The position numbers were made by a program, and so were the translations under genes. The notes beneath the pieces are model-generated. The model saw only the letters and a list, made by a program, of their open reading frames with translations. It was not told the origin of the DNA and did not search any database. From an uncultured Prevotellaceae bacterium (GTDB lineage Bacteria > Bacteroidota > Bacteroidia > Bacteroidales > Bacteroidaceae), in assembly GCA_900315095.1 (NCBI GenBank), contig OMXS01000001.1:1-64000 (forward strand): 64,000 nucleotides of DNA, in the 5' to 3' direction. Numbering within the stretch: the first letter of the stretch is position 1; each line of letters begins with the position of its first letter. Of the stretch, positions 2 to 16,351 are shown piece by piece.

Positions 2-1489
2 GGCACTTTGCTTGACCCTAACGACTTCTCGCTGATGTGTATTCTTGCCGATAGCGAGGCGCGTGCTGCCGATGCCGACAACCAGGCGATGACTCTCGTT
101 GGGCGCATCGCAAAGATTTATGATGCCAAGAGTCATGACGGCAAGCGACTGGAGGTGCAACTGGTGCTGCGTAACCAAACAACGCTGTGGATGATTCAAA
201 ACGTTGACCTGCGCAGCGACCTCAATGAGCAGCTCGATGTCTATCCTTTCACACTGGAAGACCAATGGGCAAAGACTGTGCTTACAGGCTCGCGACGCGA
301 CGGGAATCATTGTTATCCGCTCGACCGAGTGCCTATCAAAGCCGACAGTAACCAGACCGTGCACCTCGTGGTGATAGGAAACGGGGCGCTGGCAGAGAAC
401 ATTGCCATAACCGCTGCACTCGTAGCGCACTACCCCAACTATGTTCGCGACAACTCTCTGCGCACCCGCATCACCATCGTATCGCCCGACACCGACCACT
501 CGTGGAGCAATTTCAGACAGCGACAGAAGGCACTTTTCGACAATTCTTACTGGCGAACGATTCCTCTGGAAGGCTCTGCGGCACAGCCATTCTTCCACCG
601 TCCGATGTACAGCGGCACGCGCGACGACTTCGTTGACGTTGACTGGGAGTTTGCACTTGGCAATGCCGACGACCCATTGCTGCGCCAGAAACTCGACCAA
701 TGGGCACAAGACCCGCACCAGCAACTCACCATAGCCCTCTGCGACAAGGACGAGGAGAAGAACTATGACCTTGCTTTCACGCTGCCCGATGCCGTCTATG
801 ACAAGAAGATTCTTGTGCTCGTGGCCATGAGCAAGGCAGAAGTGATGGAGACGGTATCGCTCTCTAACTCGATGTATAGCGAGGTGCACCCGATAGGGAT
901 GATAAATAAAGGTCACGATGTGAGCATGCCCGTGATGCAGATGGCAAAGCGGCTGAACTACTTCTACAGTTGCAGTTTCGACGGAAAGGGCGTTCCCACG
1001 TCGATGCCCAAAGACGAGATAGAAGAGAAATGGGCACAGCAAACCTCCGTGGCGCTGCGCTTCTCTAACATATACAACTCGATGACGCTGCCCACGAAGA
1101 TGCGTTCGCTGGGGCACGACGAGAACGACTGGGACAAGTTCTACGCCTTGACGAAGGATGAGATACGCCAAACGGCTGCCGTTGAGCATAACCGTTGGAG
1201 CGTGGAACGCCTCATTCTGGGATTCCGTCCGCCTACAGACAGCGAACGAGCAGAGATAGAGGAAAACATAGAACAACTCGCCGCCGCACGCCGAAGGGGC
1301 GAAAAATCGGAACTGAACGACTTTAAGAATATGTATAAGAAGCGCAAGATACACTACGACTTGTGCTCTTACGCCGAACTAGGCATAGACAAGACGGGAC
1401 AGGACGTGCGCATCTACGACTATGACCTCACCGCATGCATACCGCTAATAGCAAACTCCTATCATGAAGACGGACAAGAACACGCCTAA
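2..1489 (+). CDS. RyR-domain protein with Rossmann-like region (5' end cut by window)
   Basis: The frame is open to the left edge, and the first start-like codon is a TTG at 8, so the true start lies outside the window. About 493 residues are visible. The middle holds a Rossmann-like glycine segment (VVIGNGALAENIA, near residue 120). The C-terminal part is an RyR (ryanodine receptor repeat) domain with EHNRW at about 393-397, then a charged helix and KIHYDLCSYAEL. In prokaryotes RyR domains accompany TIR, TrkA-like and other conflict or nucleotide-signalling modules, where they are thought to bind a small ligand. The gene overlaps the next by 26 bp, so the two are translated together. A membrane-bound protein of similar plan lies at 8799-11102. 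The RyR call is firm; the function is inferred. Confidence 0.75.
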   Translation, partial: GTLLDPNDFSLMCILADSEARAADADNQAMTLVGRIAKIYDAKSHDGKRLEVQLVLRNQTTLWMIQNVDLRSDLNEQLDVYPFTLEDQWAKTVLTGSRRDGNHCYPLDRVPIKADSNQTVHLVVIGNGALAENIAITAALVAHYPNYVRDNSLRTRITIVSPDTDHSWSNFRQRQKALFDNSYWRTIPLEGSAAQPFFHRPMYSGTRDDFVDVDWEFALGNADDPLLRQKLDQWAQDPHQQLTIALCDKDEEKNYDLAFTLPDAVYDKKILVLVAMSKAEVMETVSLSNSMYSEVHPIGMINKGHDVSMPVMQMAKRLNYFYSCSFDGKGVPTSMPKDEIEEKWAQQTSVALRFSNIYNSMTLPTKMRSLGHDENDWDKFYALTKDEIRQTAAVEHNRWSVERLILGFRPPTDSERAEIEENIEQLAAARRRGEKSELNDFKNMYKKRKIHYDLCSYAELGIDKTGQDVRIYDYDLTACIPLIANSYHEDGQEHA

Positions 1490-2867
1490 GACATACTACA
1501 TCCTGCGCTTCATGCACGACGATGCGATGCACCGAAGGGGCGAGAAGATGCTCAATGCAAAGAACGAACTGCGCATTGGGCACAGCGAGGAGTGCGACTT
1601 GCGGTTGCCTAACCCCGCCCCCACCGAAGACGCGGCGCTCGCCATAATAGTCCCTTCACCATCATCAGAGCGGAATGCTGAGACAGCCGCTTCATGGAGG
1701 CTTGTGCGTCTCTCACCATACAAGCAGCATGAGGTGCGCGTCAACGGCACGCCCGTGACACATGTTCACCGCCTCGCCGACGGCGACCGTATCAGTTTCG
1801 AGGGACAAAGACAGGAACTGCAGTTCAGCATCCATCACGATGACATGTATAACTCACAAGGCTTGGTGATGAAAACCAGCATGCCGCGATGGACAATAGC
1901 GCTGCTGGTGGCCGTGCCTGTCATTCTCTTCGCTGTGCTCTTCGCCATGATGCGTAATGCAAACGCCCAGATGATGGACGACTCTTTGGCAGAGAGAGTT
2001 AAGGAGTCGGTGCTGAAAATGCAAGCCGACTCGGTGTGGCTTGTGGCCATCAACGACGGCGACACCGTGCGGTTGCAGTCACACTCGTTCTCCGCCGACA
2101 ACCAAACGACCATCGGCACGGCATTCCTCACGGAGGACTCGATGCTCATAACGGCGCGCCACTGCCTCGAACCGTGGCTCAACGACCCTGTAGCACCTAC
2201 TGTTAGCGACACCACCGAACTCTCCTCGCTGCCCGTGCGATGGGCAATGGTGGCGGAAACTGCCAACCAGAACGAAGGCAAAGAGGTGATGGCGCTCATC
2301 ACATTCGTGTCACTATGGAAGGACGGCGACAACAGCGGGCCTGTCGCAAGGCTGCGTTCGACGGACTTCACGATGAATAAGTCACGCGACGAGATAATAG
2401 AAACGGGTGACTTCGACCACGAACTATATTGGCGAAGCATACTGGCGCGCCACCGCCGCACCGACATGACGCTGGGTGATATTGCCTGGATGCAGGTATC
2501 GCCGCAAAGTATTGGTTTACCAAAGAGCGTTATTCGCCGCGCCACCTGCGACGACATGAAGCAGATGCTGGCAAAGACGGGACGCAAACTATACTTTATG
2601 GGGTTCCCGTCATCACAGGAACGAGGTTTCGAGAAGTGTGATGACGAACTCCGACAACCTGTCCGCATCGGCGAAGACGGACTGCCCGATGCTGTGCTTG
2701 CGCACAACGGCGACATCCGTCCGGGATTCTCTGGAGGTCCGGTGATGGTGGCCGATGGCGGCACAGCCATCGTTGTGGGTGTCGTTTCGGTGGTTGACCA
2801 AGTGAGTGACCAGCGCAAGTACTCGGTGCCTGTGACTGAAATGGAGAGGCAAAAGCAAGAGAACTGA
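1464..2867 (+). CDS. FHA domain - transmembrane - trypsin-like serine protease
   Basis: The 467-residue protein has three parts. Residues about 10-125 are an FHA domain (LRIGHSEECDLRLP at 36-49, then NGTPV and LADGDRISF), a fold that binds phosphothreonine. Residues 142-163 are one membrane helix with basic residues before it (N-in). Residues about 175-460 are a trypsin-like protease with His233 (TARHC), Asp339 (GDIAW) and Ser423 (GFSGGP), so the triad looks intact. The predicted topology is cytoplasmic FHA and periplasmic protease, which would link an inner phosphorylation signal to outer proteolysis. It overlaps the RyR gene by 26 bp and is 5 bp before the kinase-like gene. Domain calls are strong; substrate and trigger are unknown. 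Confidence 0.85.
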   Translation: MKTDKNTPKTYYILRFMHDDAMHRRGEKMLNAKNELRIGHSEECDLRLPNPAPTEDAALAIIVPSPSSERNAETAASWRLVRLSPYKQHEVRVNGTPVTHVHRLADGDRISFEGQRQELQFSIHHDDMYNSQGLVMKTSMPRWTIALLVAVPVILFAVLFAMMRNANAQMMDDSLAERVKESVLKMQADSVWLVAINDGDTVRLQSHSFSADNQTTIGTAFLTEDSMLITARHCLEPWLNDPVAPTVSDTTELSSLPVRWAMVAETANQNEGKEVMALITFVSLWKDGDNSGPVARLRSTDFTMNKSRDEIIETGDFDHELYWRSILARHRRTDMTLGDIAWMQVSPQSIGLPKSVIRRATCDDMKQMLAKTGRKLYFMGFPSSQERGFEKCDDELRQPVRIGEDGLPDAVLAHNGDIRPGFSGGPVMVADGGTAIVVGVVSVVDQVSDQRKYSVPVTEMERQKQEN

Positions 2868-2872
2868 ATCTT

Positions 2873-3514
2873 ATGATAGAGCAAATGACCATAGAACAAC
2901 TGCTGGAGGCATATCCCGAAGGCATCGCAGAGGGTTTCGCAGGCTATTGCGATGAACTCTCGGCGTGGCAGTTGATTGTGGATGTGACAACAAAGTTGTT
3001 GGATGATGGGTGTTGGATGATGGTTGACGGACAACAAAAAACGGTTGATATTTCGCCCGCTTGCATCGCCATCAACGGCTCAGGATTCGCACTTGTGTCG
3101 CTTCCCGACTGTCACGACGATGCTTTCGATGCACCAGAAATCATCAACAGCCAACAGGCGACACCCGAGAAAAGTGCTGTTTGGGCGCTTGCTGCCACGG
3201 TGTTCCGCATGGTCATGGGATGCAACATAATGAACGGACGAGGCGGAAAGGCACAAAAGGCAACATCGAAACTGCCGTTCATGCGCAACGAAATGCCTGC
3301 TCTGAGCCGTCTGGTACAGCAATGTCTCGACTACGATGTCACCAAACGCCCGTCGCTCGATGAGGTATTGGTCGCCGCAAAGGAAAATATGGAGCGCTGC
3401 CGAGAAGAAATGAAAGACGGACCGCGCATGAAACCCGAAACCGCCAGCAGCACATCGGCAACGCAAGCCGACTCGGCAGCATGGCCAGAAGAGATGATTC
3501 CAGCACAGAATTAA
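2873..3514 (+). CDS. Kinase-like remnant, probable pseudokinase (C-lobe only)
   Basis: The 213-residue protein resembles the C-lobe of Ser/Thr kinases. It has an APE-like DAPEI (about residue 85), a segment SAVWALAATVFRMVMG matching the helix after the activation segment, and CLDYDVTKRPSLDEVL matching the conserved Arg-containing end of the kinase fold. I see no glycine loop, catalytic lysine, HRD or DFG motif, and the N-terminal part is too short for a full N-lobe, so catalysis is unlikely. It sits directly after the FHA-protease gene and could act as a scaffold or allosteric partner of the FHA domain. Residues about 41-55 are encoded by a heptanucleotide repeat array (2995-3036), which has altered this region. 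The tail is low-complexity. Confidence 0.6.
   Translation: MIEQMTIEQLLEAYPEGIAEGFAGYCDELSAWQLIVDVTTKLLDDGCWMMVDGQQKTVDISPACIAINGSGFALVSLPDCHDDAFDAPEIINSQQATPEKSAVWALAATVFRMVMGCNIMNGRGGKAQKATSKLPFMRNEMPALSRLVQQCLDYDVTKRPSLDEVLVAAKENMERCREEMKDGPRMKPETASSTSATQADSAAWPEEMIPAQN
2995..3036 (+). repeat. Heptanucleotide repeat array inside the pseudokinase gene
   Basis: Six adjacent 7-mers, including GATGATG (twice) and GGTGTTG, encode about 14 residues of the pseudokinase without breaking the frame. It matches the array at 24566-24607. Confidence 0.6.
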
Positions 3515-3623
3515 ACCAAATGAATTTTAATTCATCATACATGCAAAGAGGAGTTAAGATTTATGGGAATGTAGGAGTATAGACATCATCACTTCTACAC
3601 AACCAAACAAAAAAGAGAAAAGA

Positions 3624-4265
3624 ATGAAAATAGCTATACTTATCATATCATTAATAATGTCGGTTACTGTTTCTGCACAGCAGAACGACAAGGAACTGAA
3701 CAGCCTAGTGACGATGGTGAAGAACCTGAGACAAGCAGGCGTGGCAGAGCAGAAGCAGGCATTCAACAACACTTTCCAGTCGCTCGTTGCCGATACAGCA
3801 TGGACTCCGATGAACGAACTGCGCGACAAGAACGGCGCCGAGTGCCCTCACTCGGATAAGTCACTACCGCGTTTCCGCCTTAACCGCATGCTCAGCAAGG
3901 CAGAACAGGTGCATCAAGGAGTGGCTGTGGCCACCAACGGCTTCATGAACGGACAAGACCCACGCTTCAACTACTCGCTATACGAAAAGAGTGTGATGGC
4001 AGGAAAGCGCGTGAGTTACACTTTCAGCGGGCGTGAGGGACGGCAGGTGTTCGTGGTGGTGCCATACAAGACATCGGCCAAACTTAACGCCAAACTGCTC
4101 GTAAGCGGCAAAGAAGCGGCATCATCGCAAAGACTCTCTGACGGCACTCTGGTGCTGGAATGCACCGAAAACATAAACACAAAGACACCGCTTACCCTCG
4201 AGATAAGCAACGAAGGCAGCGAGGGAATGGCTATGGTGATACTTAACCACAACACAAGACAATGA
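3624..4265 (+). CDS. Exported protein of unknown family
   Basis: The 213-residue protein starts with a signal peptide (MKIAILIISLIMSVTVSAQ), cleaved near residue 19. The mature part begins with helical charged sequence and ends with an all-beta stretch (about 125-210) that loosely recalls the PPC beta-sandwich found two genes downstream. I do not recognise a family. The stop codon overlaps the ATG of the CHAT gene in an ATGA (4262-4265), so the two are translationally coupled and probably act together, for example as a chaperone, inhibitor or substrate of the CHAT protease. It follows the pseudokinase after a 109-bp gap that holds a short palindrome (TGAATT/AATTCA at 3521-3534) but no clear promoter. 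Confidence 0.6.
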   Translation: MKIAILIISLIMSVTVSAQQNDKELNSLVTMVKNLRQAGVAEQKQAFNNTFQSLVADTAWTPMNELRDKNGAECPHSDKSLPRFRLNRMLSKAEQVHQGVAVATNGFMNGQDPRFNYSLYEKSVMAGKRVSYTFSGREGRQVFVVVPYKTSAKLNAKLLVSGKEAASSQRLSDGTLVLECTENINTKTPLTLEISNEGSEGMAMVILNHNTRQ

Positions 4266-6622
4266 AAAGACATCTAAGAATCTTCCTTACAACAGCGTTG
4301 GTCACGGCTGCAGCATACACGGCAACGGCACAGGCAAAGTGGAAAGGGTTTTCTTCCACGCCCAATGCCGATGCCGATTACCAACGCAGCGTGGAACTAA
4401 TGGGACAGGGAGATTACATGGAGGCGGCGCAATTGCTGCGCGCTATCTCTTCAAAAGTTGGTGAACTGGAGGGCAGACAGGCATATCTTGATATGGCTCG
4501 TCTGCTGAAAACCGAGGGAAACGCATGGAACCAACTGGGTAACAAGCACCAAATGGGGCGCGTGACAAGCCGCATGACTTTTATTGTGAACGAAGGGAAA
4601 CACCTCGGATTGCTCAATGACAACGAGGCGGCGGCTATGACTGCCGACACAAAGAAACTGCAAGGAAACATTCTCTACGAAGAAGCCGACAACAGCATGG
4701 AGGCAATGGAACAGGCGAAAGAGTATTTCAGCAAAGCCATTACCATATATGACATGCTGTCGCAAGACAAGGATCGCGCCGTCACCCAGGTGGAAATGGC
4801 GGAACTGTTATATAAAGGCAAACACTATGACGATGCTCTGATTCTGCTCGATGCTGTCTGCTCTGACTATGAGGAATGGGCTGCAGACGAGTACATCGAT
4901 GACAACCTGCTCTACGATGCGTTGTCTGCACGCGCTATGACACTTGCACGCCTCCAGCGTTTCGACGAGGCTCTTAACGACATATCACGAGGAGTGAAAC
5001 AATACGGAGTAAAGAAAGGATGGCGATATGCCGAGATGCTGCGCAAGAAAGCAAAGATAATGATGCTTCGCCAGGAGGCAACGGGAGGCTCGAAAAGTGA
5101 TGCCCTGAAGTGCTACAAGGAGGCTTTCGATTATCAGAAAGACTATGCACTCAGCCATCTGGCAAGCATGAACGATGCCGAGCGCGAGCAGTTCTGGATG
5201 CGCATGCGACCATTCATCGCCGACTGTTACCGTTTGGAGGATGCCGATGCAGCCTTCTTGTTCGATGTTACGCTATTCAGCAAAGGACTGCTGCTGCAAC
5301 TTGGTCAGATGACTGACAACGGAAAAAACAGCACAGAGGCAATAGCTTCTCTCCGCCATACATGGCAGCAGATTCAGAAACGACTGCAGAAGGATGCATG
5401 CGCCATAGAGTTCGTGCAGTATGAGAAGCAAGACGAACAGCAGATGGGCGCTCTGCTGCTGCATAAGAGTGGCAAACCCGTGTTCGTAAAGATGCCGAAA
5501 CCCGAGGAGATTATGGAACATAAGATTGGTGCCTTCACCGTGCGCCAGCGACTGGCGGGTGAACCTAACCGTCTGAACCAACTATACAAGGACACTACTG
5601 AACTACAAGCGAAGATATGGCCTGCGGCACTTGTCAAGGCAATAGGCAAGGACAAGAAAGTGTATTTCTCACCAGCAGGATTCCAGAACCGCATCGCCAT
5701 AGAGTACATGTTACCTGCGCAACTCGATGGAGCAGACGTTTATCGACTCACGTCAACACGCACTCTGCTCTACTCTAAACCGCTAACCGACCGCCAGCGA
5801 GCACTCATCTGCGGCGGCATCTCATACGAAGCAGACATCAATCAGTCCACACTCAACGCTCAGCACTCATCTCTTAACGATCTACGCGCCTTCGACTATG
5901 CCGCAGGGAAGCACATGAAGTTCACTTATCTGCCTGGTTCACTGGCAGAGGCTGACACCATCAAGGCACGGCGAAACATGAAGGGTGACCTGCTGTTGAC
6001 TGGTTCTAAAGTCACGGAACAACAGTTCTGCGAACTCGCACCAAAGTATCCCATAGTCAACATATCCACACACGGATTCTTCGGAGCGGCATCCACACCG
6101 ATGGGCACCGACCTGAAACCATGTCTAACAGACGAGTCGATGTCTGAGAACTTCCTCGTTCTGGCTGGAGCAAACACCAATATCGGCGATGAAAACTTCG
6201 ATAAAGAGCAGCGTGACGGACTTCTTTCTGCACTTGAGATGTCGGCTCTCGACCTCAGCGAGGTGGAACTGTTCGTTGCCTCTGCATGTCAGTCGGGTTC
6301 AGGATACATCACTGCCGATGGTGTTTATGGCATACAACGAGGACTGAAGAATGCTGGCGTAGGCGCAATGGTGGTAAGCCTGTTCAACGTCAGCGACAAG
6401 GCAACGAGCATAATGCTCTCCAATTTCCAGGCATTCATAGCGCGAGGCATGCCGCTTCACAAGGCTTTCATGGCGGCAAGAGAGACACTTAAGGCTCCGG
6501 CACAGCAGAAAAAGGTATATTTCGATGCTGCCCTGATGTCAACAGTGGTGCAAGGGGGCGATGACTTCAATCTCCCGCAATACACCAATGCCTTCATCTT
6601 GATTGACGCAGTTGATTTCTGA
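4262..6622 (+). CDS. Exported TPR-CHAT protein (caspase-like protease)
   Basis: The 786-residue protein has an N-terminal signal peptide (cut after ATAQA, about residue 25), a helical TPR-type region (about 35-330) and a C-terminal CHAT domain (about 480-786). The caspase-type dyad is visible as His604 in NISTHGFFG and Cys676 in ASACQSGSG, followed by the GAGVGAMVVSLFNVSD-like end of the fold. CHAT proteases such as the gasdermin-activating and Craspase enzymes cut partner proteins in bacterial defence. Export to the periplasm is unusual, because most CHAT effectors are cytoplasmic. It is coupled by ATGA to the exported gene before it. A heptanucleotide array (5844-5878) encodes residues about 528-539, just ahead of the catalytic core. 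Confidence 0.85.
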   Translation: MKRHLRIFLTTALVTAAAYTATAQAKWKGFSSTPNADADYQRSVELMGQGDYMEAAQLLRAISSKVGELEGRQAYLDMARLLKTEGNAWNQLGNKHQMGRVTSRMTFIVNEGKHLGLLNDNEAAAMTADTKKLQGNILYEEADNSMEAMEQAKEYFSKAITIYDMLSQDKDRAVTQVEMAELLYKGKHYDDALILLDAVCSDYEEWAADEYIDDNLLYDALSARAMTLARLQRFDEALNDISRGVKQYGVKKGWRYAEMLRKKAKIMMLRQEATGGSKSDALKCYKEAFDYQKDYALSHLASMNDAEREQFWMRMRPFIADCYRLEDADAAFLFDVTLFSKGLLLQLGQMTDNGKNSTEAIASLRHTWQQIQKRLQKDACAIEFVQYEKQDEQQMGALLLHKSGKPVFVKMPKPEEIMEHKIGAFTVRQRLAGEPNRLNQLYKDTTELQAKIWPAALVKAIGKDKKVYFSPAGFQNRIAIEYMLPAQLDGADVYRLTSTRTLLYSKPLTDRQRALICGGISYEADINQSTLNAQHSSLNDLRAFDYAAGKHMKFTYLPGSLAEADTIKARRNMKGDLLLTGSKVTEQQFCELAPKYPIVNISTHGFFGAASTPMGTDLKPCLTDESMSENFLVLAGANTNIGDENFDKEQRDGLLSALEMSALDLSEVELFVASACQSGSGYITADGVYGIQRGLKNAGVGAMVVSLFNVSDKATSIMLSNFQAFIARGMPLHKAFMAARETLKAPAQQKKVYFDAALMSTVVQGGDDFNLPQYTNAFILIDAVDF
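5844..5878 (+). repeat. Heptanucleotide repeat array inside the CHAT gene
   Basis: Five 7-mers such as ACTCAAC and GCTCAGC sit in a loop-encoding part of the CHAT gene and give a Ser/Thr/Asn/Gln-rich peptide. The reverse strand shows the GTTGAGC / GCTGAGC units seen after metK and inside miaB. Confidence 0.65.
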
Positions 6623-6673
6623 ATACCGCACTCGGCTTTAGTCGATTAAAAGAACTTTGAATATAACAATTAT

Positions 6674-7873
6674 ATGAATAAGATAATAATCCTAATTGGC
6701 GTTATCGCCATGCTGTTCTCCACCAGTACCAAGGCACAAAGCAGTGACGTGGAACTGGAAGGACTGCAGGTGGGCGTGAACACCATGGATGACGGAACAA
6801 GAAAGAAAATCACCGGCATCGTAGAGCAGATGCAAGAGCAAGGGGGAGCAACACGCGGAGTGGTGAGCGACATCCTGAAGTCTGCTCTTACAGGTGGTAT
6901 TACTGCCACACTCGACGTGATTGGTACGGAAATAGTAAACCTCGCACACTACAAGAAAAACCAAAAGCGCAAGTGGATGGAGATGATTGAGCGCGAGTGC
7001 AACTACACCGACAGCATACAGAACCTGCAAGGACTGCAGGACTTCTACTCCGAAACATCTACAATAGGTGCACTCGACCCTTCAAACCTCAATTTCAACG
7101 GTATCTCCATACGCGGAATGAGAGAAGGGAAAGAGGTTCTCTATCTCTCATGTCATATCGACACGGCGCGCCTGAGCCACCTCATTCAGCACAGTAAGTT
7201 CAACCTCGTGCTCGACACAATGGCGTTCCACCCCTACGAGTGCCACCTTCCTAACCTGCAAGCCAACGGCATACGTCTAATGAAAGGGCAGCAGAGCGAA
7301 CGCGACAACTCATTCTCTTTCGATGAGCGAACAAACCTTCGCGTGGGCATTGAGATGGAAATCTTCTCGTCATGGATAAACGAGGCAGTAATGGTGATGG
7401 ACAACGTGAAACTGGGTGAGTTCAAGATGAACATCAATATCAACACCCATGACCCTATTTTCACTTACTCGCGCCGTCAAATTGAGCAGAACAGACTTAA
7501 CGCTCGACGTTCGGCAAACAACAATCAACTATCAGCCGCCGACACAACTTTCATCGGCATCGAAGGCGATTGCTTTGTGGTGCCACGCTCATTCATGCCG
7601 GTGAACGGCGGACAGCGCATGTGGGGAACGGGCGAATACAACATCAAGGTAAAGATGAGAGAGTCATGCCAGTTCTCAAACGACGAAGAAAAGAACAAGA
7701 AAATGAAGCAGTGGTATCGCGACTACAAACAACTGCGCAAGATGCAGCGCAAGGGCAAAGGAACAGAAGTGGGCGAATACTTCCGCACAGTATGGCAACA
7801 GAACGAGAACACCATCATGAAAAAGATTGTGAAATCAAGCATCGACTCTGGCGCTAAAGCTTTCGGACTATGA
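6674..7873 (+). CDS. Exported protein of unknown family
   Basis: The 399-residue protein begins with a signal peptide (MNKIIILIGVIAMLFSTSTKAQ). A helical N-terminal part (about 40-115) contains a glycine-rich, weakly hydrophobic stretch (SALTGGITATLDVIG) that could insert into or contact a membrane. A beta-rich middle (about 140-290) and a very basic C-terminal tail (KKMKQWYRDYKQLRKMQRKGKG) follow. I recognise no family. It lies 51 bp after the CHAT gene on the same strand, so it probably belongs to the same operon. A membrane-acting effector released by the CHAT or trypsin protease would fit the context, but nothing in the sequence proves it. Confidence 0.6.
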   Translation: MNKIIILIGVIAMLFSTSTKAQSSDVELEGLQVGVNTMDDGTRKKITGIVEQMQEQGGATRGVVSDILKSALTGGITATLDVIGTEIVNLAHYKKNQKRKWMEMIERECNYTDSIQNLQGLQDFYSETSTIGALDPSNLNFNGISIRGMREGKEVLYLSCHIDTARLSHLIQHSKFNLVLDTMAFHPYECHLPNLQANGIRLMKGQQSERDNSFSFDERTNLRVGIEMEIFSSWINEAVMVMDNVKLGEFKMNININTHDPIFTYSRRQIEQNRLNARRSANNNQLSAADTTFIGIEGDCFVVPRSFMPVNGGQRMWGTGEYNIKVKMRESCQFSNDEEKNKKMKQWYRDYKQLRKMQRKGKGTEVGEYFRTVWQQNENTIMKKIVKSSIDSGAKAFGL

Positions 7874-7902
7874 TAAATAATAGAAAATAATAATTTAATA
7901 AT

Positions 7903-7938
7903 CTCTGTTAGCTCCGTCTCCTCAGTGAACTCTGTGCA
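7903..7938 (+). repeat. Four tandem 9-bp units before the PPC gene
   Basis: CTCTGTTAG, CTCCGTCTC, CTCAGTGAA and CTCTGTGCA follow each other without gaps in the 110-bp space between two exported genes. The common core is CTCnGT. I see no known role; it could be a spacer hairpin or a slippage product. Confidence 0.4.
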
Positions 7939-7983
7939 GCAGGAGCAAAACGGAAAAAACTAAACTCATAAATTCACAAAACA

Positions 7984-8661
7984 ATGAAAACAAAGACTTT
8001 ATTAATTGGTGCGGCAATGATGTTCGCCGTAACAGCAAGTGCACAAGAACAAACAGTAAGTGCACAGCCAAAAGCAGTGAATGAAACAGCACAGCTTCTC
8101 GGCATGGCAGGAGAACTGGTTAAGTATGGCTACAAAACCCAGAATGCACTTCCTTTGGTTCAGGCAGTACAGATTTACAAGAGCATTGGTGTTGTGCCAG
8201 AGGCAGAAGCAAAGAAAAAGGAAGTGGAAGGACAAAGCCTCGCTGAAGCAAGGAAGGCAAAGAACAACCCTGTGCAGTACGACCAGGCAAAGCTCATCGC
8301 TGATGCAACAGCTTATGCTGACGGCGACGAGAACATTCTGGGATTAATCAAAGGACTGGACGATGTACGTGGACGTGTTGGAGGCGAGACATATCACATG
8401 GATGTTGTAGATGCCGGACTTACCGATGTCTATACCATGCGTTTCCAAGGCGGTGAAGATGCCACCATCATTCTTAGCGGTGATGGTGACACCGACCTCG
8501 ACCTTTATGTTTATGACGAGAACGACAACCTCATCGGCTATGATGATGACGGCACCGACGACTGCGTCGTTTCCTTCACACCGCGTTGGACTGGCAACTT
8601 CAAGATTAAGGTGAAGAACCTCGGTGACACCTATAACTCTTACACACTCATCACAAACTAG
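7984..8661 (+). CDS. Exported PPC-domain protein
   Basis: The 225-residue protein has a signal peptide (cut near ASAQ, residue 21), a helical middle (about 30-115) and a C-terminal bacterial pre-peptidase (PPC) beta-sandwich (about 130-225) with the typical DTDLDLYVYDENDN and WTGNFKIKVKNLG segments. The acidic DGDTDLDLYVYD stretch is like the calcium-binding strands of this family. PPC domains usually occur on secreted proteases, so an isolated one next to a trypsin-like and a CHAT protease suggests an accessory, inhibitor or targeting subunit. It is the last gene of the plus arm and is followed by the terminator at 8721-8768. Confidence 0.75.
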   Translation: MKTKTLLIGAAMMFAVTASAQEQTVSAQPKAVNETAQLLGMAGELVKYGYKTQNALPLVQAVQIYKSIGVVPEAEAKKKEVEGQSLAEARKAKNNPVQYDQAKLIADATAYADGDENILGLIKGLDDVRGRVGGETYHMDVVDAGLTDVYTMRFQGGEDATIILSGDGDTDLDLYVYDENDNLIGYDDDGTDDCVVSFTPRWTGNFKIKVKNLGDTYNSYTLITN

Positions 8662-8720
8662 TTTTGCATGCGTATGTGCGTTACCACTAACGTATAAACT
8701 TTAGCAATAACGCTGATAAG

Positions 8721-8768
8721 TTTCACGCGCTCATCCTTGGTTGCTTACCAAAGGCTGAGCGCGTGAAA
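8721..8768. terminator. Bidirectional terminator between the two arms
   Basis: A perfect 13-bp stem (TTTCACGCGCTCA at 8721-8733 with its complement at 8756-8768) holds a further imperfect inner stem (CCTTGG with CCAAAGG). It lies between the convergent ends of the PPC gene and the RyR membrane gene and is flanked by A/T-rich sequence on both sides. Confidence 0.8.
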
Positions 8769-8798
8769 TACTTTTATAGACACATCTTGAAGTTGTTG

Positions 8799-11102
8799 TT
8801 ACTCTATTTCCTCTAACGAAACATCAACGACATTACAGTCGTAGCTCTGCACTTCTTCGGTTAGTTCTTGCCAAGAAACGAGGTTGTCGTGGGTCATTCG
8901 AGCCTCATCTTTCTTGTCTCCGTAAACATATCCCAGCACCTCATGCGATGCACACCAGCGCAGGTGCTCTGTCCATGCGAGAGTGGCGAGGATTGAACAT
9001 TGAGAGCCGAGCGTTGAGGGCTGAGCGTTGGATGAAGAGTTTGGCGTATTGAAGGTGTATGTTGTCTTGCCAAACTCGCGGGTGATGGCGCCATTTGTTA
9101 TTGCTGAACGTAGTTCTTGCAGTTTCGCCTTGCCATCTTTGCCGCTCTTCTCGAATGCCTTTTGAACAAGCAAGAGTTTCGTTGCAGCATGCTTTGCATT
9201 GGCAATGTCCTGACTTTCCTTGCGACGCAGTTCCATAATATCCGACATTGAAGGCGAAAGATGGCTACCCTTACTGTTGCCGAGCAAACGACGGTGACGT
9301 GCATCCCAGTCTTCTTTCCATTCAGACGGAAAGCGGTTGTTATACTTATCAAGGTAACGGCGCGCCTCCCTAACGAGCCGGTCACTCACGATATTCTCAT
9401 ATGTATGTATCGAAGCGAAGTCGCCGAAGAGCGTTATTGGTCCGTCTGGCCGCTCTTCTCGCAGTGTTTCTTTATCGTTCTGCGCCTTGAAGAGACGGTT
9501 GTAATGGTCTGCCACGATGTCGATATTTCCGTCTGAGCGATCATGAACTCTGACGAGAATGCGCAACATCTGCGGTCGCTGGCTATAGCGTATTGCTAAA
9601 CGCATTATTCTCACAGCGAGAGTGATGTTCAGCGTGTCATCAGCCGTTGCTACAACAACATAGTTAAGTGTCTTTATCTTGTCGAGCAACAACTTTGAGA
9701 ATTCGGCACTGCGGGCATCGAAATTATGCAGCACAATACTATTGTCTGCATTCTCCTGAGTTAACTCTCCTCTCGGAGCAACAGGAAGAGACCTTAGTGC
9801 AGGGGTATTGGTGTAGAACTTGCCTGCAAGAATGTCCATCCGGTTATCAACTACATCGCAGTGGAACGGCGACCGTTCTACTTTCTCGCTCGTGCTTCCT
9901 GTGGCAGCAAAGGCTGAGAATTCGTAGAGGAACCGCACGGCATCAAGTCCCACCTCACCGAATCCTATGACAAGAGCATTGAAAGGCGACGAGACGGTGC
10001 CGTCCTGCTCTACATCGACGAAGTTAACGGGCTGCAAACTGACGTCCTGTTTCAGATGTTCCACGCATATGCGCGAGGAGTCTATAATCCTCACGTCAAT
10101 GTTCTCGCCACATGCCTCATCCTCGATGACACGATGGGCGCTGTTATAGCGTGCATGACAATAAAGTGTAGTCTTCACTCCACGTTCAGCAGCAGACATA
10201 ATAGTGCTGTCTAGTCTCAGCACTCCTGCCTTGTTTAGATTGTCTGTATCACTATCGGAAAGGATGAAATAATGTGCCTCAGCATTTTTAGTCTTATGCA
10301 TGTTACGCACTATACGTGCCAAGAGTCCTACGCCTATGCTGCGCAGCACATTATTGTCTGCTTCAATGTCATTTGTGCTCAGGTCAGAGAGTCGGCTGCT
10401 TGCGATGGAAAGCAACGCATTGTTGTATGCTGCAGTTCTGAAAGTCTCCGCGCGATGTGTTAGGATACTCATGATGCTGTCAATGCCACTACCCTGCTCA
10501 CCCTCGTCCTCCGTCAGCGGTGTCTCAACGAAGATGATGCTATAGTCGTTCTCTTTCTGCGTCTTGCGAATATCCTCTGCAAGCACCTTTGAGGCATCGT
10601 TGATGCCGAAGAACACGAAAAGCCGGCGACGAGGGAAGATTGTAGCACGGATTGTAGAGAAGACGAGGCGGAGATATGCCCACAAGCGATGAGCTACAAG
10701 ACTCACGAACAACAATACCGTGAGCAGCGATGCCAGTACCGTAATGACTGATATGATGCCACGTATCAGCGGAGCATCGTTGTCGCCAGTGATATTTGCA
10801 AAGACATCGCCATCGACCTGGAAGGCAAACATGCCCAATGAGCACAAAGCAGAGCGGAACAGCAACTCGAAAGAATGAAACGTGCCACTTCCACTCACCA
10901 ACGCATACATATACGCCAGCAGTCCTGCCGCCCATAGGAATACCATTGATGTGGCAAGTGCCTTCAGTTGTCTGCTGCGGTTAAGACTTACTCTCTTATT
11001 GGTAATCCACCGCGACACATGAACCACCATCAACAGTGCAGCAACGATGAGCAGCATCATTGCCAACCATCCAGGCCATCCTATTTCGTTTATAAACATC
11101 AT
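8799..11102 (-). CDS. Membrane protein with two Rossmann (TrkA-like) domains and a C-terminal RyR domain
   Basis: The 767-residue protein has three or four membrane helices (about 11-28, 49-68, 78-95, 115-138), a layout like an ion channel but without a recognisable TVGYG filter. Two Rossmann-like domains follow: one from about 160 (LFVFFGINDASKVLAEDI), one from about 375 (NALVIGFGEVGLDAVRFL, a GxGxxG motif). The C-terminal RyR domain (about 700-750) shows WTEHLRW at 710-716 and a later NLVSWQEL. TrkA-like domains bind nucleotides and gate channels; RyR domains are found in bacterial conflict loci. It lies 17 bp after the TIR gene. A heptanucleotide array encodes a Ser/Asn/Gln-rich linker just before the RyR domain. 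It could be a ligand-gated channel; no direct evidence. Confidence 0.75.
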   Translation of the reverse strand: MMFINEIGWPGWLAMMLLIVAALLMVVHVSRWITNKRVSLNRSRQLKALATSMVFLWAAGLLAYMYALVSGSGTFHSFELLFRSALCSLGMFAFQVDGDVFANITGDNDAPLIRGIISVITVLASLLTVLLFVSLVAHRLWAYLRLVFSTIRATIFPRRRLFVFFGINDASKVLAEDIRKTQKENDYSIIFVETPLTEDEGEQGSGIDSIMSILTHRAETFRTAAYNNALLSIASSRLSDLSTNDIEADNNVLRSIGVGLLARIVRNMHKTKNAEAHYFILSDSDTDNLNKAGVLRLDSTIMSAAERGVKTTLYCHARYNSAHRVIEDEACGENIDVRIIDSSRICVEHLKQDVSLQPVNFVDVEQDGTVSSPFNALVIGFGEVGLDAVRFLYEFSAFAATGSTSEKVERSPFHCDVVDNRMDILAGKFYTNTPALRSLPVAPRGELTQENADNSIVLHNFDARSAEFSKLLLDKIKTLNYVVVATADDTLNITLAVRIMRLAIRYSQRPQMLRILVRVHDRSDGNIDIVADHYNRLFKAQNDKETLREERPDGPITLFGDFASIHTYENIVSDRLVREARRYLDKYNNRFPSEWKEDWDARHRRLLGNSKGSHLSPSMSDIMELRRKESQDIANAKHAATKLLLVQKAFEKSGKDGKAKLQELRSAITNGAITREFGKTTYTFNTPNSSSNAQPSTLGSQCSILATLAWTEHLRWCASHEVLGYVYGDKKDEARMTHDNLVSWQELTEEVQSYDCNVVDVSLEEIE
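8995..9043 (-). repeat. Heptanucleotide array before the RyR domain
   Basis: Seven 7-mers (GAGCGTT occurs twice, with GAGGGCT and GAGAGCC) encode the linker between the second Rossmann region and the RyR domain. The frame is kept and no stop codon arises. Confidence 0.65.
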
Positions 11103-11119
11103 CTATTACCTATTACAAA

Positions 11120-12268
11120 TCATTCAACTCCAATGATTGTGCTCTCGGTATGCGGCACAGCTATCTGCGTGTCAAGCAGATTCAGCGGAGATGAAAGGTC
11201 ATACACAGGACGCTGTTTGTCAAGAGGAATGCTTAGTCGTACCATTCCCTTGCTGTCACTACGCGTCTTCTGGTCGCCCACCGTTATTTCCGCATTAGGC
11301 ACAGGCGCCTCCCGGTTCTCATTCCATAGCATGAAGTTGATGGTTCCGAACACCTTCTCATCGCGTTTCACACCGATGGTCTGCTCTTTCGAGAGTTCAA
11401 CGATAGTATCAAGCGGCAGATAATTGGATGCCTCGAACTTCAAATGCACCTTCTGTCCAAGGTAACGGTGAGGAATGTTAGGCAATGTAAGCGTCTCGCC
11501 GATACCTCTCAGGGTGTCGACTTTCGTTTCATTGTCGAGTTGCAGCGTTATAACTGCATCTTTCATTGGCGGAAGATTGGTGTTCTGAACCGTCAGTTCC
11601 TTCGCCTGCACATGACAGTCGAAGTCACGATTCATCCACCATGTAACTGCAATAGCGGCAATCACCGCCAATACTGCAAGTATGCGGAATATCCACAAAC
11701 TATATAGACGATGCTGATAGCGGTTCCAAATGAAGCCATAAGCGTCAGGAAGACCTATCAACAGCGACACCACCTTAGCCACAGCCTTGCGTTTACGGAA
11801 AATCTTCAGGTCGTCGCCCTCGTCATGGACATTCACTCCGAGCAGTTCTCCCTCACCGAACGCAGCCTTCAGAACGGGGTTGAAGCACTCGTTCTCATCA
11901 TTGCTGTAAGGTGTTCCCGCCACGATGAAGGGGATTATCTTGTCCTTCATGCCGTGGTCAATGAAGTATTGCATCTCCTTTCCACACCACTTTGACTTCG
12001 CTGAGTTGGGTGAGCAAATGACAATGAGATGCTGCGAACGTTCCAGTTCCTCGCTGAGTCCTTCGGTAAGAGTCTTTGCAACGAGGTCTGAGATATACCT
12101 GAAAATCTTGAATTTCTCAGGTTTCTTGTCATAAGACTTCAGCACCTGCCCCTCGTCGTTGGCTATAACCGTAGGCAAACTGTAGTTCTCCAATCGCTTT
12201 TGCAGCCACTTAGCCCATTTGTCATCGCGGGAGTTATAACTTATGAATGCCGTGAATTTCTTTTCCAT
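11120..12268 (-). CDS. TIR domain - transmembrane - Ig-like protein
   Basis: The 382-residue protein begins with a TIR domain (about 5-175). AFISYNSRDD is box 1, and Glu98 in SKWCGKEM sits where NADase TIRs carry the catalytic glutamate, so NAD-cleaving or signal-making activity is plausible. One membrane helix follows (about 192-212) with many basic residues before it, placing TIR inside. The outer C-terminal part (about 215-382) is beta-rich, with a carboxypeptidase-regulatory-like repeat (PNAEITVGDQKTRSDSKG). It lies between the exported TPR gene and the RyR membrane gene and is probably co-transcribed with both. Membrane anchoring with a periplasmic domain is uncommon among immune TIR proteins and suggests sensing of outer signals. 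Confidence 0.85.
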   Translation of the reverse strand: MEKKFTAFISYNSRDDKWAKWLQKRLENYSLPTVIANDEGQVLKSYDKKPEKFKIFRYISDLVAKTLTEGLSEELERSQHLIVICSPNSAKSKWCGKEMQYFIDHGMKDKIIPFIVAGTPYSNDENECFNPVLKAAFGEGELLGVNVHDEGDDLKIFRKRKAVAKVVSLLIGLPDAYGFIWNRYQHRLYSLWIFRILAVLAVIAAIAVTWWMNRDFDCHVQAKELTVQNTNLPPMKDAVITLQLDNETKVDTLRGIGETLTLPNIPHRYLGQKVHLKFEASNYLPLDTIVELSKEQTIGVKRDEKVFGTINFMLWNENREAPVPNAEITVGDQKTRSDSKGMVRLSIPLDKQRPVYDLSSPLNLLDTQIAVPHTESTIIGVE

Positions 12269-12305
12269 GAGGTTATTGTTTTATGTTTTAGTTGCTGTTT
12301 GGAGG

Positions 12306-12324
12306 GTTGCGATGGTATCGCAAC
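12306..12324 (-). other. Hairpin between the TPR and TIR genes
   Basis: GTTGCGAT (12306-12313) and its complement (12317-12324) form an 8-bp stem with a 3-base loop in the 106-bp gap. There is no T-run, so it may set mRNA stability or processing rather than end transcription. Confidence 0.4.
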
Positions 12325-12374
12325 ATGCGGGACGAGGACAATCGGTATTTTCCTTTCTCGTTCTTCTTTCCTCT

Positions 12375-14201
12375 TTATTTCATATTATCTCTTATCACCT
12401 GCAGCGTTTCCTTGAGCGATGCAATGTGACTTGCCTTGCCGTCAGGGGCTTTGCTATGTGATTCTATGGCACTTACGAAGTTTGCCTCTGCCTCTTTAAA
12501 ATTCTTCAGATAGACATTCGTGAGTCCCATATACTCATAGGCCAATCCCACTTTGCGGTTTGCCTCGCCAAAAGCATTGACATACGACTGCCTGGCAAGA
12601 GTGTAACTCTTCAGCGCTGCAGCATAGTCCTCTTTCTTGCTCTGCTCGTCCCCTTTAAGCATTGCCACCTCGCCGATATTCTCAAGTGCCGTCCTCGTGT
12701 CGGGATGATTGTCTCCCAGAGTGGTTGACCATATCTCCAACGCCTTGGCGAACATCGCGAGAGCATGGTCATAGTCCTTGTAGTGGCCATAGATACCGCC
12801 GACGTTGTTGTATATATTAGCCACCGAAGGATGCTGCTCACCATAAAGAGCGGTATAAAGCTCGAACGCTTTGCTGTAGTTTTCTGCCGCGCACTCATAG
12901 TCGCCCTGCTTTTCGCAAAGGCCGCCGCGGTTGTTATAGAGTGTGGCGAGAGAAGGATTGTTTTCGCCATAGAGTCGTTTCTTTATTTCAAAAGCCTTGT
13001 CCAGATTCTTCTTTGCCTCGTTATAATTCCCTGTTTCCTTATATACTGAAGCCACGTTGTCATAGGCTATTGCCACCACGTCATAGTCCTCACCGAGCGA
13101 CTTCTCCCAAATGCCGAGCGCCTTCTGGAAGTTGCTGATGGCTTTCTGATAGTCTTTTTTATAATAATGTGAACTTGCGATGTTGTTATAGCACAATGCC
13201 GTCTGCATGCTTTCCTCGCCGTTCTGCTTCTGCGATGCCGCGAGCGCACGGTTGTTATACATCATTGCCGTGTCGTAGTCGCCCATCACCTCCAGATAGA
13301 AAAGTCCTGTGAAGATCTGCCACTCCACCATGTCGGGGTCAAGCTCGGCACGAGTGGTGATATACTCCTTAGCCTTGTCGATTTCGAACTTTGAATATGC
13401 AATGGTGAAAAGTTGGTAAAGATACTCCGCATCCTTCGCCTGGCGCTTCAGCACCTCCTGCCTCTGGCGCTCTGCCTCTTCCATCAGAGCGTTGGCATCA
13501 GCCAGTTGCTTGTCTATACGTTGTTTGTCTTCCTTCGCTTTTTTCAGCGCTTCAGTAGGGTCGAACATGCTGTTAATCATCTCTTCCGCACGTTCCAGTT
13601 CTCCGTTCTCAATGAGTTGATTTATCTGTTTGTTCTTCTCGTCGAGTGCATCATAGTCGGTCTTGGCATAGTGCTCAGCCATTTGCTCTATGAGTGATTC
13701 ATACTTCTCAAACTGTTTCTGCAAGTCGTTCACCTGCTTCTCATAGTTGGCGGCGGTGATTTTCTTAGCGTTCAGTTGTTTTTCGAGCGCCATCATCTTC
13801 GCTTTGTAGTTCTTTTCTGCTGCCTTGTATGCATTGTTCTCTATTCGTTGCTTGTCGGCTTGCAACTGCGAAGAGTTCACCATCACAATCTGCATGGTAA
13901 CCGAGGGGGAGAAAGCATAGTTACGTCCTATCATTCCAGCCTCTATGAGTTCATATCCTGCCTTCTTCACGCTCTGCAGCGCATAGGCGTCACCTGCCTT
14001 CTTGCCAGTCATGGCTATGGAAAACGTTCCCGTCTGCGCACTCACAACAGCATTATGGACGCCCCTCACTCGGATGGAAACACCCTGCAAAGCAGCACCC
14101 TTAACGCCAGGACGTCCCAGCGATTTCACATAACCCTTCTGCACTTGTGCCATAGCGGGAAGTGACAGAATCATCAGCAGTGTCGCGATTATTCCTTTCA
14201 T
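12375..14201 (-). CDS. Exported TPR protein with CarboxypepD_reg-like domain and coiled coil
   Basis: The 608-residue protein has a signal peptide (MKGIIATLLMILSLPAMA), a short beta domain (about 20-110, ending in TMQIVMV) like carboxypeptidase-regulatory modules, a long charged coiled coil (about 113-265) and at least six TPR units of the 42-residue kinesin-light-chain type (about 265-600, e.g. NYNEAKKNLDKAFEIKKRLYG). Such TPR arrays bind partner proteins. It is the first gene of the minus arm, with its own promoter at 14225-14255, and the TIR gene follows. It probably acts as a periplasmic scaffold, perhaps meeting the outer Ig-like part of the TIR protein or the CHAT protease. The last codons and the stop lie within a GATAAGA-type heptamer stretch. 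Confidence 0.8.
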   Translation of the reverse strand: MKGIIATLLMILSLPAMAQVQKGYVKSLGRPGVKGAALQGVSIRVRGVHNAVVSAQTGTFSIAMTGKKAGDAYALQSVKKAGYELIEAGMIGRNYAFSPSVTMQIVMVNSSQLQADKQRIENNAYKAAEKNYKAKMMALEKQLNAKKITAANYEKQVNDLQKQFEKYESLIEQMAEHYAKTDYDALDEKNKQINQLIENGELERAEEMINSMFDPTEALKKAKEDKQRIDKQLADANALMEEAERQRQEVLKRQAKDAEYLYQLFTIAYSKFEIDKAKEYITTRAELDPDMVEWQIFTGLFYLEVMGDYDTAMMYNNRALAASQKQNGEESMQTALCYNNIASSHYYKKDYQKAISNFQKALGIWEKSLGEDYDVVAIAYDNVASVYKETGNYNEAKKNLDKAFEIKKRLYGENNPSLATLYNNRGGLCEKQGDYECAAENYSKAFELYTALYGEQHPSVANIYNNVGGIYGHYKDYDHALAMFAKALEIWSTTLGDNHPDTRTALENIGEVAMLKGDEQSKKEDYAAALKSYTLARQSYVNAFGEANRKVGLAYEYMGLTNVYLKNFKEAEANFVSAIESHSKAPDGKASHIASLKETLQVIRDNMK

Positions 14202-14224
14202 TATGTTGGTTGTTTAGGTTGATG

Positions 14225-14255
14225 CAAAAATAAGCATTATTTTCATTACGGCAAA
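14225..14255 (-). promoter_or_regulatory. Promoter of the TPR-TIR-RyR arm
   Basis: On the minus strand TTTG (14252-14255) is followed after 19 bp by TATTTTTG (14225-14232), a full Bacteroidetes promoter. The start codon at 14201 lies about 17 nt after the expected start site. Confidence 0.75.
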
Positions 14256-15126: not shown

Positions 15127-15621
15127 ATGGATATCATTTCTTGGACAGCAGCAACATTGATGAGCATGTACATGCTCCTTGGATCGCAAACTTCTAACAG
15201 CGATTACGTGTATAACGCAGAAATGCAGGACGGCAAGATCAGTGCCATTCTATCATACAAGACTTCTGACACAGGCAGCACTCTTACAGCAAACACAAAG
15301 CATGTGTATGAGTATGACGAGCAGCAGCGTGTGATAAGTGACCAGACTCTCAAGTGGAATATTGACGAGCGCCAGTGGGTTCCTGAGAAGTGTATCGAAT
15401 TTGAATACGACGGAATCACTATAGCAATGAACTACAGGAAATGGGACAAGAGAAGCAATAGCTACATGGCTCCGTCAGAAAGCATGGTTTACACCATGAT
15501 GGGCACGCTGGTAACCAGTGTGGAGAAATACAAGAAGAGCAACCGCACTGGCGAACTAGAACTCGCAGACCATTATATACTGATGGGAGGCGGCATCTAT
15601 AACACGCTGGCAAGAAAATAA
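15127..15621 (+). CDS. DUF3836-like protein
   Basis: The 164-residue protein has a short hydrophobic N-terminus (about 5-19) and then repeating YEYDEQQRV / FEYDGITI strands, the pattern of the Bacteroidales DUF3836 family of small secreted beta proteins of unknown role. The N-terminus lacks a clear cleavage site, so it may stay membrane-attached. An ECF-type promoter motif shared with the sigma gene at 18026 lies directly upstream, so the gene is probably part of that sigma factor's regulon and may respond to envelope stress. Confidence 0.6.
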   Translation: MDIISWTAATLMSMYMLLGSQTSNSDYVYNAEMQDGKISAILSYKTSDTGSTLTANTKHVYEYDEQQRVISDQTLKWNIDERQWVPEKCIEFEYDGITIAMNYRKWDKRSNSYMAPSESMVYTMMGTLVTSVEKYKKSNRTGELELADHYILMGGGIYNTLARK

Positions 15622-15633
15622 TACAACCCCAAT

Positions 15634-15653
15634 ACCCCTCCTCCGGGAGGGGT
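15634..15653 (+). terminator. GC-rich hairpin after the DUF3836 gene
   Basis: ACCCCTCC (15634-15641) and GGAGGGGT (15646-15653) form an 8-bp stem with a 4-base loop, followed by a short TTT. Probably a weak or partial terminator. Confidence 0.55.
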
Positions 15654-15689
15654 TTAAATGCATATAATAATATATAAGGAATAAGAGTT

Positions 15690-16295: not shown

Positions 16296-16351
16296 ATTGC
16301 GAATTGCCGCATTGGCAATGCGAGAGTTTCTTATTTTTAATTACAAAGACA

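Follow-up and report, generated by a model that had tools for sequence, protein, structure and literature searches.

What does a locus do that combines RyR, TIR and protease domains in two convergent arms, and do the arms belong together? This question is raised by ten genes, here A to J, that fill positions 2-14201 of a 64,000-nucleotide stretch (the window) from an uncultured Prevotellaceae bacterium (assembly GCA_900315095.1, contig OMXS01000001.1). RyR domains form the ends of gene A in arm 1 (1124-1462) and of gene H in arm 2 (8802-9029), and gene I, next to H, encodes a TIR protein. The arms are linked by the pairing of a TIR gene with an adjacent RyR-domain gene, an arrangement that recurs in related genomes more often than expected. 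We read the locus as a TIR-signal defence (or envelope-damage) circuit with two RyR readers, and hold this reading tentatively, at somewhat below an even chance.

The association of the two domains was counted in two sets of genomes, which overlap in part and both exclude the genome of the window (G000). For the first count, 46 loci encoding Rossmann-RyR proteins were chosen by matches to A or H and, in three cases (G127, G113, and G116), by matches to the arm-1 protein F; TIR was not a criterion. The TIR model PF13676, which also matched four of 14 control genomes, was searched in 44 genomes. A TIR gene lay within 10 kilobases (kb) of the Rossmann-RyR gene in 16 of the 46 loci, whereas TIR density predicts 0.80 (P ~8e-18, a rough value like the other P-values given here, since related genomes were counted as independent and contig ends cut some stretches), and within 2 kb in nine against 0.23 expected. 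We left out 11 of the 45 matching genomes, in which the match was weak, partial or confined to RyR (G172, G219, G222, G295, G350, G389, G390, G476, G482, G496, and G525), and also G045 and G111 (stretches L042 and L043), which matched by RyR only. For the second count, PF02026 (RyR), PF13676, and PF12770 (CHAT) were searched in 101 family genomes, with matches in 0, 4, and 1 of 14 controls, respectively; RyR numbers are lower bounds here because divergent RyR ends, that of A among them, escape PF02026. TIR was present within 5 kb of five of the 19 PF02026 loci (14 genomes; 0.20 expected), and CHAT within 10 kb of three (0.13 expected). At the level of whole genomes, TIR occurred in 10/14 RyR genomes and in 16/86 other family genomes (P 1.5e-4).

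To our knowledge, bacterial RyR domains have had no clear role so far. A May 2026 preprint reports that phage RyR proteins bind or cleave 2'/3' cyclic ADP-ribose (2'/3'cADPR) via residues H75, W78, H100, and D117; in the passages of it available to us, a Bacteroides thetaiotaomicron RyR protein is named once, as a structure match (PMC13232231). Profile alignment shows that these four ligand residues are kept in A and H of the window, in 56 of 62 fused RyR rows and in 21 of 26 stand-alone rows; the rows include relatives, as do those for TIR, an A relative is among the RyR profile seeds, and L145 repeats part of L032. The TIR domain of I matches TIR_2 (1.3e-14) and ThsB_TIR (3.8e-8) in Pfam and the ThsB models of PADLOC (best 1.5e-5). 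Its motif SKWCGKE contains a candidate catalytic Glu, retained in 29/31 aligned rows, which we take to be the Glu of an NADase.

The features of the locus are:

Gene A, 2-1489, + strand: Rossmann (RCK-like) protein with a C-terminal RyR domain, read as soluble; 5' end missing.
Gene B, 1464-2867, + strand: degenerate FHA domain, transmembrane (TM) segment, and trypsin-like protease.
Gene C, 2873-3514, + strand: kinase C-lobe alone, with catalytic motifs lost (pseudokinase).
Gene D, 3624-4265, + strand: exported protein with a signal peptide.
Gene E, 4262-6622, + strand: exported TPR-CHAT (caspase-like) protease.
Gene F, 6674-7873, + strand: exported protein that matches no Pfam family.
Gene G, 7984-8661, + strand: exported PPC-like protein.
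Hairpin, 8720-8769, both strands: between the convergent arms, likely a shared terminator.
Gene H, 8799-11102, - strand: three TM-like stretches, two Rossmann (RCK-like) domains, and RyR.
Gene I, 11120-12268, - strand: TIR, TM segment, and an outer carboxypeptidase-regulatory-like domain.
Gene J, 12375-14201, - strand: exported TPR protein with an N-terminal part of its own.

Arm 1 comprises A to G on the + strand, where neighbouring genes overlap or are separated by no more than 110 bases; in arm 2, on the - strand, J is 106 bases from I and I is 17 bases from H. The hairpin separates the 3' ends of both. The surrounding stretch, 8712-8785, folds at -32.7 kcal/mol on the + strand and -31.8 kcal/mol on the - strand (z -6.62 and -6.05 against shuffled sequences), so the two convergent arms with a common terminator that a preliminary description had noted are borne out as to layout and, judging from the predicted fold, probably as to termination. 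A simple terminator scan did not report the hairpin because its loops were limited to 3-8 bases. Only A is incomplete, truncated because the window opens with base 1 of contig C46 of G000; its first codons were found where contig C20 ends, and stretches L044 and L045 contain full-length copies (534 amino acids).

Gene A itself gave no Pfam match at E<=0.1. Its RyR end matched the RyR profile at 1e-21, a score that is not independent since a close relative of A is among the profile seeds. Independent support for this assignment comes from long relatives of A, in 4/16 of which Pfam detected RyR (best 9e-5) and whose profile matched RyR chains in the PDB (7e-4), as well as from the profile comparison with the H family. 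An eight-sequence A profile searched against the PDB gave no RyR and matches at chance level only (ORC1, E 0.33). The RyR domain of H matched Pfam at 2.4e-5, with 24.9 bits against a cut-off of 27.4, and reached 29 bits, over the cut-off, in the PF02026 search of the family genomes.

Profile comparisons relate both readers to RCK-channel-like proteins. The 16-sequence profile of long A relatives matched the 'TrkA domain protein' 4gx0 in the PDB (9.5e-4), from the TM region into RCK, and also DMI1 (0.0012) and CASTOR (0.026); 4gx0 is the GsuK channel. Slo-like_RCK was matched by eight of these 16 relatives (best 4e-8) and TrkA_N by three of 11 H family members. The H family and the long A proteins align over 501 columns (hhalign, E 3e-18), with N-termini that may be too long where the rows of either profile are stop-to-stop open frames. 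By hydropathy, H has three TM-like stretches. CASTOR has been described as a Ca2+ channel whose gating ring is of the RCK type (PMC6697748). A tree built from 28 rows unites the short A proteins of the seven arm-1 loci in a single well-supported group (100/99), next to which a further short row is placed (91/96). Together with the channel matches, this grouping suggests that the arm-1 reader belongs to a channel-like family and has lost its membrane part, with a membrane protease as its neighbour. A thus appears to be a shortened descendant of an RCK ion-channel-like family that became tied to envelope proteases.

Some further RyR genes and neighbours were observed. An M48 peptidase gene with a zinc ribbon adjoins the long A gene in two genomes (L037 13747-14625 and L040 13789-14670). 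In another class of RyR proteins, the N-terminal region either has no named domain or is weakly C39-like (L108 13864-14955, L121 11420-12565, and L124 3917-4906), and proteins of this class also occur beside TIR and CHAT genes (L174 4503-5177 and L178 2975-3697).

Outside the window, both arms occur in the same gene order in Prevotella sp. UBA4330 (L044) and RGIG7809 (L045), with 72-97% identity per gene; we saw the exact two-armed locus in the window genome and these two close relatives only. Arm 1 (A, FHA/trypsin, pseudokinase, CHAT, and F) recurs without arm 2 in four divergent genomes. In three stretches (L026, L027, and L032), A-B-CD-E-F forms one block, in which A, B, E, and F are 27-41% identical to the window proteins; in L118, from another family, the order TIR-A-B-CD-E-F is adjacent and on one strand, headed by a TIR-TM-FGE gene. 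F is close to a CHAT gene in seven of the eight other family loci found. The arm-2 set of RyR protein, secreted TPR protein, and TIR-TM protein recurs in several families: Rossmann-RyR, J, and I-type TIR genes stand in a row in L129, L131, and L137, RyR and J genes run up to the contig end in L138, and more generally the J type recurs beside I-type and RyR genes. Mixed arrangements were also found. L040 holds TIR, CHAT, RyR, H, A, and a second TIR within 14.5 kb, L178 has TIR-TM, RyR protein, and exported TPR-CHAT genes in a row, and the arm-1 genomes G127, G113, and G116 carry I-type TIR-TM proteins elsewhere. The co-occurrence of both arms in Bacteroidales, which the preliminary description had put forward for checking, thus turned out mixed: the arms are mostly apart, and L118, L040, and the three genomes with distant I-type proteins speak against a complete failure.

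L118 10985-20000 is a dense conflict locus in which arm 1 is accompanied by the TIR-TM-FGE protein, a second TIR gene, and an nSTAND1 protein; in L034 255-8552, five TIR-bearing open reading frames lie consecutively upstream of both a stand-alone RyR gene and an H-type gene; and in L028, L029, and L030, F is accompanied by two TPR-CHAT genes, with no other part of arm 1 in those stretches.

The two nearest matches of the host are Prevotella metagenome-assembled genomes. The genes to the left of the locus read as 2-oxoacid:ferredoxin oxidoreductase, and in all six congeners examined none of B, E, F, H, I, and J occurs in the ~12-13 kb beyond these genes. Absence of the six genes beside a conserved left flank indicates that the block is accessory. 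To the right lie genes for DUF3836 and DUF2975 proteins (window 15127-17326), and the third of these genes (16352-17326) had one weak match among 25 congeners searched. An origin from a mobile element was considered and found no support: plasmids gave no match to H and phage records no match to A, and of the two profiles tried, those of A and H, neither was confirmed in viral contigs.

The envelope proteins of arm 1 combine intact and degenerate domains. In B, the trypsin domain is well supported (PF00089, 1e-7), with a triad recognisable by motif (TARHC, LGDxA, and GxSGGP) in 7/7 sequences, and hydropathy places one TM segment between the inner and outer parts and a second stretch inside the trypsin domain. 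The FHA match is weak (0.017, below cut-off). FHA domains bind phosphothreonine with the Arg that follows the Gly of the GR motif, and this position is His or Gln in 7/7 B sequences. C matches a kinase C-lobe (5e-8), without an N-lobe match. Active Ser/Thr kinases are marked by an N-lobe and the HRD-Asn and DFG motifs, neither of which was seen in the alignment of C. Since the FHA and kinase domains lack these key residues, a phospho-signal running through C and B is unlikely, and we discarded this candidate. Of the FHA-TM-trypsin and kinase-like labels first given to the two genes, the protease, the membrane segment, and the C-lobe stand, whereas the FHA domain is weak with its key Arg gone and the kinase is missing its N-lobe and catalytic motifs. 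B and C also matched PADLOC models (RT-Protease_XI 3e-9 and LmuA 9e-5 for B, mad6 4e-8 and PD-T4-6 9e-4 for C), in each case through single domains only, and we did not count this as membership in those systems.

In L026 (12686-13876), L027 (13524-14705), L032 (12997-14196), and L118 (7084-8286), a single protein corresponds to C and D and contains an inner TM-like stretch and Ala-Gln. In the window (2873-4265) and its two near relatives, C and D are split at this stretch, which serves as the D signal peptide. D itself matched Mfa_like_2 alone (0.063, below cut-off). E has a CHAT domain (8e-29) with a His-Cys dyad, His604 and Cys676, that is invariant in 12/12 sequences. F gave no Pfam match; a conserved Gly/Ala-rich stretch was seen by eye, and as a candidate pore former it showed no hydrophobic segment beyond the signal peptide in the hydropathy scan. 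G matched PPC at 8e-4, below cut-off. The leaders of D, E, F, G, and J in the window end in Ala-Gln, an export signal known as the Q-rule of Bacteroidetes (PMC10653852). With a loose pattern of our own, such a leader was found in 23/26 exported proteins checked, the exceptions being E of L026, E of L118, and F of L028.

I has one TM segment by hydropathy between its inner and outer parts. The TIR-TM-Ig label proposed for it holds for TIR and TM; the 'Ig' part received no Pfam domain name in the window protein, and the region matching this outer part in a relative (L140) gave CarboxypepD_reg at 8e-5, below cut-off. J has TPR repeats (3e-69). With FHA, TIR, and RyR inside and trypsin, CHAT, and TPR parts outside, the topology suggested in the preliminary description agrees with the TM segments of B and I and the export signals, which supports its conflict-type, trans-envelope composition. 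In L111 (3-1037), L112 (18807-19895), and L140 (5089-6222), the outer part of I is joined to a different N-terminus that looks DUF4062-like by eye; Pfam, run on the L140 protein as the sole one of these scanned, found no DUF4062 match. As DUF4062 is reported to be a TIR-like NADase in the portion of that study available to us (PMC13174449), the NADase of I-type proteins may be swapped.

The circuit that we favour would work as follows. The exported protein J and the outer part of I would watch the envelope, and on a trigger the TIR domain of I would turn nicotinamide adenine dinucleotide (NAD+) inside the cell into an ADP-ribose-type signal. The RyR domains of both readers would bind this nucleotide. 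H, whose architecture resembles that of an RCK-gated ion channel, might then alter ion flow, and A would relay the signal to B and C/D in the membrane. Outside the membrane, the trypsin domain of B may activate the exported CHAT protease E, which in turn could cut F or other envelope proteins, and the infected cell would be stopped. The layout of the proteins, their conserved residues, the recurrent neighbourhoods, and the kinship of A and H with RCK-channel-like proteins are observed; each step of the flow and its direction, the nucleotide, the gating, the sequence of the proteases, and the role in defence are inferred. A more specific form of the idea, in which TIR-made cyclic ADP-ribose opens RyR-tipped RCK channels in Bacteroidales and a shortened branch has been re-wired to a protease cascade on the periplasmic side, seems rather unlikely to us. 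Either form suggests a distant resemblance to the signal-gated calcium channels of animals.

Several observations weigh against this circuit. For 30 of the 46 Rossmann-RyR loci, the 10-kb neighbourhood contains no TIR gene. Where loci were found by A or H alone, nearby CHAT is a weak signal (2/43 against 0.20 expected, P 0.016), and the three CHAT cases of the second count come down to two places, namely two loci on one G042 contig and a stop-bearing CHAT fragment in G020. L045 lacks F between E and G (11470-11513) and keeps the other nine genes. Hydropathy also marks a TM-like stretch in A (residues 162-180 of the L044 protein); it sits within the Rossmann core, and we therefore read A as soluble. 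H, linked to RCK channels through the long-A profile comparison, is a putative channel with no recognised pore or selectivity motif, and among the best 60 of 61 PDB matches of its profile the sole channels were ryanodine receptors, matched through the RyR domain. In the 151 family genomes, F was found in nine and H in 11, both together in G000 alone. It follows that the strict one-system claim of the preliminary description fails beyond the two near relatives in which the arms are together, and a conserved two-armed unit was rejected outside them. Two independent conflict modules, A-G and H-J, each with its own RyR reader, could have come to lie side by side by chance or hitch-hiking. Such a pair would agree with this distribution, with arm 1 standing without arm 2 nearby in L026, L027, and L032, where no TIR occurs within the fetched stretches, with the TIR/J/RyR rows without arm 1 nearby in L129, L131, and L137, and with the accessory nature of the block. 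It fits less well with the joint retention of both arms in three genomes whose individual genes differ by 3-28%, with the TIR gene adjoining arm 1 in L118, with the joint presence of TIR, CHAT, H, and A in L040, and with the I-like proteins elsewhere in the three arm-1 genomes. We consider two separate systems possible but doubtful.

The precedent for RyR as a reader is itself ambiguous, as it consists of phage proteins that destroy or trap a signal and not of an activated protein. RyDEP cleaves 2'/3'cADPR and several homologues bind it (PMC13232231), most of the bacterial RyR rows retain the catalytic His and Asp, and stand-alone RyR genes recur beside TIR or a fused reader; RyR might accordingly be an off-switch that degrades or soaks up the TIR signal, leaving TIR or another part as the effector. 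However, six of eight phage homologues tested bound signals, and cleavage by a homologue is, in the passages available to us, reported for the DyoEdafos protein only (PMC13232231). RyR in this locus is moreover fused to channel-like and shortened Rossmann proteins beside proteases, an arrangement that fits a reader better than a sink, and we regard the off-switch as improbable. The same anatomy, in which exported TPR-CHAT and J accompany the outer part of I, would also allow the flow to run from outside to inside: E and B would sense outer damage and, by cleaving either J or the outer domain of I, set off the TIR, which would kill through NAD+ loss. A, with its predicted signal-binding RyR end, adjoins B, so that the nucleotide seems to act upstream of B, and arm 1 lacks a nearby TIR in three genomes. 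We give this reversed order little weight.

The preliminary description had not foreseen that RyR is the likely reader of the TIR product, the relationship to RCK channels, or the loss of key residues from the FHA and kinase domains. Its remark that it knew of no described system with this exact composition agrees with our searches, in which none appeared among the PADLOC and NCBIfam matches or in the open-access literature searched. A link between TIR, RyR, and channels was likewise not found in that literature, a scope that earlier surveys from the Aravind group, reportedly covering RyR and nucleotide-linked immune components, fall outside. RyR, TrkA, and CHAT were not found in the sections available to us of an eLife 2020 paper on conflict systems (PMC7159879). 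Phage RyR proteins have only recently been linked to TIR signals, and host RyR domains near TIR genes, fused to channel-type proteins, allow a direct test of whether bacterial TIR signals gate ion channels. The same loci allow a test of a bacterial parallel to the animal link between cADPR and the ryanodine receptor. If true, the more specific form of the circuit would give bacteria a counterpart to the action of cADPR on ryanodine-receptor channels, plus a periplasmic immune output; proteases beyond the inner membrane that are switched on by a signal made inside would be an unusual output of this kind.

Among known systems, the nuclease-protease pairs of Hachiman, AVAST, and canu resemble the locus in having a trypsin- or caspase-like protease beside a candidate substrate, here F, whereas the proteases of the locus are exported or membrane-spanning and F matches no nuclease family (compared with the available part of PMC12799240). 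Craspase, the TPR-CHAT protein of CRISPR gRAMP, shares the TPR-CHAT architecture, as far as a comparison through Pfam CHAT goes; here CHAT is exported and no gRAMP gene was found among the ten. GsuK (4gx0), DMI1, and CASTOR likewise have a TM part followed by Rossmann domains and are reached by profile matches through long A relatives, but the locus proteins add a C-terminal RyR domain and A of the window has lost the TM part. RyDEP, a phage RyR protein (PF02026), has the same four ligand residues H, W, H, and D; in the locus, RyR is a bacterial C-terminal module of larger proteins near a TIR gene and a putative ligand binder. No SLOG, macro, or known ThsA domain was detected in the ten proteins (Pfam at E<=0.1; PADLOC and NCBIfam at E<=0.01). 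By analogy, the closest known logic is that of type IV Thoeris, in which, according to the part of the report available to us, N7-cADPR activates a caspase-like protease (PMC12847820). As there, a TIR protein with a candidate catalytic Glu lies near a likely nucleotide reader, and a caspase-like (CHAT) protease is among the putative outputs; unlike there, the reader would be RyR on an RCK-type protein, the TIR protein sits in the membrane and has an outer domain, the CHAT protease is exported, and a second protease, of trypsin type, spans the membrane.

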